From Thermoleophilaceae bacterium (GTDB lineage Bacteria > Actinomycetota > Thermoleophilia > Solirubrobacterales > Thermoleophilaceae): a stretch of DNA of 64,000 nucleotides. Shown one piece after another: positions 57,393 through 57,994 of this stretch (positions are counted from its first letter, which is position 1; each line of letters starts with the position of its first letter). Made by a program: the position numbers and the translations under genes. The stretch spans positions 126,263-190,262 of the forward strand of contig JAUJNZ010000007.1 of the NCBI GenBank assembly GCA_030447905.1. The letters run 5' to 3'. Below the pieces are notes generated by a model, which saw only the letters and a program-made list of their open reading frames with translations, did no database searches and was not told where the DNA came from.

Positions 57393-57994
57393 GTGGGTGC
57401 GAACCTACGTTCGCTCGTGCTCTCCACGAACCAGAAGGGAGCGATCGCCGAGGCAAAGATCACCGCTGCCGCGATCGACCTTGGGATCGAGGTCTACCGA
57501 CCGTGCGTCGAGGGCGGGCGCTTCGACCTCATATTCGCCTTCGGAGCTGAGCTCGCGCGTGTTCAGTGCAAGTGGGCGAGGAGACGACGAGAGACCATCG
57601 CCGTCCCCGCCGAGACGTGCTGCGGCACCCGGGATGGCTACCTTCGGCGCCGGTACACCGAGGACGAGATCGACCCTTGGCCGCCTGCTCGCCTGACACG
57701 GGACGCTGCTACCTGCTCCCGGCCGCCATGGTCGCCGGCCGAGCCGAGATATCGCTTCGACTGTCTCCGACTAGAAACGGCCAGCGCGCCGGGATACACT
57801 TGGCCTCGGACTACGAGCTCGGGGCTATAGCTCAGCTGGGAGAGCGCGTGACTGGCAGTCACGAGGTCGCCGGTTCGAGCCCGGCTAGCTCCACTATCGA
57901 AGGCCGCCCCCCGAGGCGGCCTTCGTACTACCTGAGCGGGCTTGCCGCCGGGGAGATCTCGCCTACTCCTCGGGCTTCACCCGCTGGCCGGTGA
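57393..57994 (+). CDS. PD-(D/E)XK nuclease of the group-I-intron-associated type, frameshifted and running into tRNA-Ala
   Basis: KGAIAEAKITAAAIDLGIEVY, FDLIFAFG and ARVQCKWARR supply Glu, Asp and Gln-x-Lys of a PD-(D/E)XK site, as in the I-Ssp6803I-related homing-type family. The frame from GTG 57393 is good to about 57675, after which PDTGRCYLLPAAMVAGRAE and NGQRAGIHLASDYE continue in another frame; one missing base near 57675 explains it. That second frame stays open through the whole of tRNA-Ala (57821-57893, read as GAIAQLGERVTGS and onward) to 57994. A shorter start at GTG 57417 is possible. It is a free-standing gene; the tRNA carries no intron. Confidence 0.7.
57821..57893 (+). tRNA. 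tRNA-Ala (anticodon GGC)
   Basis: 73 bases, complete cloverleaf. GGGGCTA (57821-57827) pairs with TAGCTCC (57886-57892) with one G-T pair and discriminator A. The anticodon stem CGTGA/TCACG encloses CTGGCAG, anticodon GGC. T arm GCCGG-TTCGAGC-CCGGC. No CCA is encoded. TACACT at 57795-57800 may be its -10 box, inside the nuclease frame. Confidence 0.95.
57898..57925 (+). terminator. Perfect 11-pair hairpin after tRNA-Ala
   Basis: CGAAGGCCGCC (57898-57908) is the exact complement of GGCGGCCTTCG (57915-57925) around a six-base loop, starting five bases after the tRNA. The 3' side has only TAC, not a T run. Good candidate for the tRNA terminator. 57926-58147 shows no clear gene. Confidence 0.55.

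Follow-up and report, generated by a model that had tools for sequence, protein, structure and literature searches.

Here we describe a nuclease gene whose reading frame runs into and through a complete tRNA-Ala(GGC) gene, found in a 64,000-nucleotide stretch of DNA from a Thermoleophilaceae bacterium (the window) and compared with its relatives across the class. In our judgement the gene is likely to be a free-standing homing endonuclease element built around its own target, the tRNA-Ala(GGC) gene. With slightly less confidence, we consider that a protein-coding gene contains the working tRNA gene, in frame and on its own strand, as one of its internal segments, the frame being kept by selection, with one transcript yielding either the tRNA, through RNase P, or a protein made of nuclease, linker and DNA-binding module.

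The comparison revealed adjacency of nuclease and tRNA genes, isoacceptor-specific nuclease clades, a continuous frame, an in-frame second domain, an embedded -10-like element, decay and empty sites. Judged by sequence, the nesting is not specific to the window genome and occurs across a group of soil bacteria. Such an arrangement would escape any gene caller that drops ORFs overlapping a tRNA.

The locus in the window and its site in relatives

The window genome comprises 2.58 Mb in 25 contigs. Between an rsfS-like gene, a homologue of which is present in 113 of 121 genomes of the order and in many adjoins tRNA-Ala, and leuS, the ORF list places two overlapping frames, 57393-57830 and 57566-57994, that share one nuclease domain (Table 1). 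Our own HMM aligns profile positions 1-84 to 57426-57677 and 85-132 to 57677-57820, while Pfam PDDEXK_5 is matched at positions 2-87 by the first ORF and at 93-137 by the second. The first frame alone scores 51 bits against PDDEXK_5 (cut-off 26.1), both frames merged score 82 bits, and the intact nuclease of a sister species scores 108 bits. In this sister species of the same genus (MAG Thermoleophilaceae bacterium MGR_bin90; L176 and L395 are one locus) the nuclease frame is uninterrupted. Svornostia abyssi J379 (L401) likewise carries an intact allele.

Table 1. Features of the nuclease-tRNA locus, in window coordinates
Feature	Position	Strand	Basis	Remark
rsfS-like gene, left neighbour	56964..57377	+	ORF list	anchors the conserved rsfS - tRNA-Ala - leuS site on its left
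PD-(D/E)XK (PDDEXK_5) homing-type nuclease coding region	57393..57820	+	Pfam, own HMM	frameshifted
1-nt deletion relative to sister species	57674..57675	+	DNA alignment with L176	breaks nuclease frame
-10-like hexamer TACACT of the tRNA	57795..57800	+	sequence	within nuclease codons
tRNA-Ala(GGC), intact, 73 nt	57821..57893	+	ARAGORN, Rfam, translation	frame 1 reads GAIAQLGERVTGSHEVAGSSPASS
Remainder of read-through frame to stop	57894..57994	+	BLAST of sister versus window downstream of tRNA	Phd/YefM-like module deleted

An initial annotation of this DNA had proposed a homing-type nuclease immediately upstream of an intact, intron-less tRNA-Ala, a corrected frame crossing all 73 tRNA bases, and a tRNA promoter inside the nuclease gene. 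The adjacency stands, as the last base of the nuclease domain is directly 5′ of the tRNA; the tRNA-Ala(GGC) carries no intron, and an Rfam search of the window returned no group I intron. The crossing is confirmed for the second frame only, whose stop lies at 57992-57994, the uncorrected first ORF terminating inside the tRNA at 57830. The promoter claim agrees with the -10-like element inside the ORF, and the homing type with I-Ssp6803I as the nearest solved structure.

The window copy is decaying: it is frameshifted, has lost its module and encodes no intact nuclease. Relative to the sister species, BLAST shows about 129 nt missing downstream of the tRNA, the module included. A Phd-like resemblance in the tail of the window frame (YYLSGLAAGE) was therefore dropped, since DNA homology places the deletion there. 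A programmed frameshift was also rejected as the less probable account: the frame of the sister in the same genus is unbroken, and other relatives are broken at other positions.

In the family of the window genome, the site between rsfS and tRNA-Ala is seen empty, occupied and with relics. Within one genus, an empty site (L190) and an occupied one (L403) have in common rsfS and exactly the 73-nt tRNA, and the DNA between and after these is unlike. In the window's own genus, G659 (L176/L395) carries the fused gene in intact form, the copy in G000 is frameshifted and has no module, and G668 (L177) has no nuclease; in the latter, tRNA-Ala(GGC) points the other way with respect to rsfS and leuS, which suggests that the nuclease cassette brought its own tRNA orientation. 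Thus the gene has traits of a free-standing homing endonuclease: it sits beside its presumed target, its distribution is patchy and relatives have empty sites.

PDDEXK_5 nucleases beside tRNA genes

PDDEXK_5 is carried by 76 of 299 genomes of the class, the sampled genomes being draft MAGs for the most part. An intact tRNA gene lies within 250 nt in 101 of 102 class loci (three loci cut by contig ends left out, and in two of the 101 the tRNA reached through a tandem second copy), where about 1.3 % would be expected. The idea of a strategy tied to tRNA genes, raised in the initial annotation, is borne out by this count. The partner tRNAs are Ala(GGC), Thr(TGT), Ala(TGC), Tyr(GTA), Arg(CCG) and Ser(TGA), each with its own usual geometry. 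Two tandem PDDEXK_5 copies were observed upstream of tRNA-Ala(TGC) (L059 and L060).

On the nuclease tree, which is built from few columns and leaves many forks open, clades follow isoacceptor and geometry; isoacceptor changes number 29 against 71.5 in shuffles, and 0 of 200 shuffles are as low. A supported clade holds 58 Ala(GGC) nucleases, each of them followed immediately by its tRNA, and the tree also groups Tyr, Thr(TGT) and Ala(TGC) nucleases.

The same adjacency is found in other classes and in 40 of 41 viral-contig loci; in 12 of these viral loci the nuclease lies within the anticodon region of a tRNA predicted by ARAGORN. At a further related locus (L149) it resides in a group I intron of tRNA-Ser(CGA), the sole intron among 20 related loci scanned. 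Together, L149 and the related nucleases that sit inside tRNA anticodons on large-phage contigs point to the anticodon as target. In seven viral-contig loci (L119, L117, L125, L116, L124, L121 and L108) the inserts in phage tRNA anticodons are bare PDDEXK_5 genes of 424-469 nt; Rfam found no group I intron in them, two loci being checked at permissive thresholds. The insert ends look mutually complementary, lengthening the anticodon stem in several. Elsewhere, in a record titled Chlamydiae bacterium (L424), a nuclease of the Thermoleophilia type reads through into tRNA-Ala, for which a mis-binned contig or a recent transfer is the likely reason. At three loci from other classes of the phylum (L170, L171, L172), divergent sequences some 430-460 nt downstream of tRNA-Pro(GGG) match PDDEXK_5 weakly.

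A coding frame that crosses the tRNA

Of the 61 Ala(GGC)-clade ORFs, 60 reach the tRNA and continue into it before meeting any stop, a recurrence that puts entry into the tRNA beyond chance. Homologues ending before the tRNA, which the initial annotation had regarded as counting against its reading, amount to a single case (L022). At the tRNA, 48 ORFs are in frame 1, 13 in the frame that ends at the tRNA's U8-A9-G10 and none in the third; 43 of the 48 frame-1 ORFs cross the entire tRNA, and altogether 17 of the 61 homologues end inside it. A TANNNT motif is present inside the ORF at -36..-12 in 48 of 61 loci (7.9 in shuffles), and in 12 of the remaining 13 visual inspection shows a -10-like hexamer a few bases closer to the tRNA.

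At codon positions 1/2/3 the differences amount to.33/.28/.52 in the nuclease and.27/.31/.30 in the tRNA, and are flat in the linker too. By this measure of substitution the nuclease evolves as a protein, unlike the peptide encoded by the tRNA; it is the open frame that has been retained, not this peptide.

In two families of loci, f1 and f2, the frame runs on for about 40 residues, and these match the half of Phd/YefM antitoxins that binds DNA. All 18 module-bearing loci, the intact sister species included, have this module in the same frame as the nuclease, with no stops between. Behind 73-nt tRNAs the linker to the module measures 20, 23, 26, 29, 32 or 35 nt; behind 74-nt tRNAs, which have an extra D-loop base, it measures 22 or 25 nt, so that the linker compensates for the extra tRNA base and the frame is preserved. 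Eight module loci have no in-frame ATG, GTG or TTG between tRNA and module. The module is absent from sites without nuclease, occurring only with a nuclease or nuclease relics, and from alleles outside f1 and f2. Its codon-position differences (.39/.33/.54) are of the protein type. AlphaFold2, run on the sister fused protein with 15 sequences, predicts both the nuclease and module folds with confidence, confidence being low over a stretch at 155-167 that belongs to the part encoded by the tRNA; the nearest solved structures found by Foldseek are I-Ssp6803I for the nuclease and the VapB46 N-terminal domain for the module.

The retention of frame in all 18 loci, even where the tRNA has an extra base, and the absence of the module where there is no nuclease, argue that the tRNA is nested in one coding sequence. 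The earlier suggestion that the nuclease C-terminus is encoded by the tRNA therefore holds in part: relatives reach a C-terminal domain across the tRNA, and the tRNA-encoded peptide itself is not conserved. Since 17 of the 61 ORFs terminate within the tRNA and the module is confined to f1 and f2, full read-through is dispensable for the element in general.

These observations bear on three other explanations. It is very improbable that the window merely holds a chance read-through in a GC-rich genome. Frame 1 of tRNA-Ala has no stop, so a single case proves nothing, but recurrence in 60 of 61 homologues together with frame compensation refutes this account, and simple read-through, the fallback offered in the initial annotation, likewise leaves the compensating linkers unexplained. 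A tRNA-linked homing endonuclease that lost its stop and entered the tRNA by default, the module being a separate small gene if translated at all, has more to recommend it, as it would account for the ORFs that stop inside the tRNA and for the unconstrained peptide. We nevertheless consider it unlikely: the module stays in frame over eight combinations of tRNA and linker length, the +1 tRNAs being compensated, and this reading is at odds with the eight loci that offer the module no start codon of its own and with its restriction to nucleases and their relics.

Somewhat less likely still is a nuclease that no longer homes and that hosts keep for defence or tRNA control, its place at tRNAs being historical. 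Vertical-looking retention in several genera would agree with this, and the Phd-type module could be an autoregulator. However, the patchy presence across the class, the many frameshifted relics, the empty sites within the same genus and the phage-borne relatives together look like a selfish element.

Anticodon stems, proposed mechanism and known systems

The window tRNA-Ala(GGC) has a palindromic anticodon stem, CGTGACT-GGC-AGTCACG. In matched genomes the Ala(GGC) anticodon stem is 2-3 times more variable than those of Ala(CGC), Ala(TGC) and His (0, 1 and 0 of 1000 bootstraps, respectively), and it differs among three species of the window's genus. The hypervariability is equally seen at sites without nuclease, and the tRNA-Pro(TGG) stem, in genomes of the order (L275-L304), is about as variable with no nuclease found there. 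We therefore rejected recoded stems as proof of self-protection: they are suggestive, and self-protection through stem recoding is plausible. The variability of tRNA-Pro(TGG) possibly reflects an unknown or extinct tRNA-targeting element.

From these comparisons we infer the cleavage site, self-protection, mobility by homing and the control of expression. Intronless homing at the anticodon-stem palindrome of the tRNA is the most likely route on the sequence evidence. In the intact form, as in the sister species, one ORF would encode the I-Ssp6803I-like PD-(D/E)XK nuclease, continue through tRNA-Ala(GGC) and end with the Phd/YefM-type DNA-binding module, the complete tRNA gene acting as a passive linker that codes for 24-25 residues. 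The nuclease would cut the tRNA-Ala(GGC) gene of element-free chromosomes, probably at the palindrome, and repair from the donor would copy nuclease, promoter and stem-recoded tRNA as one unit. Nesting would keep the nuclease linked to a resistant tRNA and bring the host tRNA and its promoter inside the element, while RNase P cleavage of the transcript at the tRNA may limit nuclease synthesis.

If true, a homing element has bound itself inseparably to a vital host gene, enclosing an entire tRNA gene in its own coding frame, a conserved same-strand overlap of structural RNA and protein. Homing endonucleases that target tRNAs, known from introns and phages, would then extend to bacterial chromosomes. 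Such elements would also offer a testable reason for the extreme anticodon-stem variation of some tRNAs and would supply a family of tRNA-gene cutters that differ in isoacceptor preference.

Text searches of the open-access literature turned up no account of a homing endonuclease whose frame encloses a tRNA. The closest relative in sequence is I-Ssp6803I (E=7e-17), the PD-(D/E)XK homing endonuclease from the group I intron of Synechocystis tRNA-fMet (PDB 2OST), which is also the top Foldseek match of the modelled sister protein (E=3e-12). The D...QxK active-site residues align, and D, Q and K are invariant. I-Ssp6803I is likewise tied to a tRNA gene; however it is intron-borne, whereas here there is no intron, the tRNA is whole and either follows the ORF or is enclosed by it, the partners span several isoacceptors and some nucleases have a Phd-type module. 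The match of this module to Phd/YefM antitoxins (PF02604, TIGR01552) covers their N-terminal half, which binds DNA, and the module is similar to the N-terminal domain of VapB46, but it has no toxin-neutralising half and is joined to a nuclease through a tRNA-encoded linker. In intronless homing by free-standing endonucleases, the element-free allele is cut and repair copies the nuclease gene with its flank (PMC3984707); the same mobility route is proposed here, with the target being a host tRNA gene inside the nuclease gene. The nearest precedent for tRNA-linked free-standing homing is SegB of T-even phages, a free-standing GIY-YIG nuclease that adjoins tRNA genes and is reported to cut inside them and to drive recombination of the tRNA region (PMC13096335). 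SegB differs in having an unrelated nuclease fold, in residing in a phage rather than a chromosome and in leaving the tRNA outside its coding frame.
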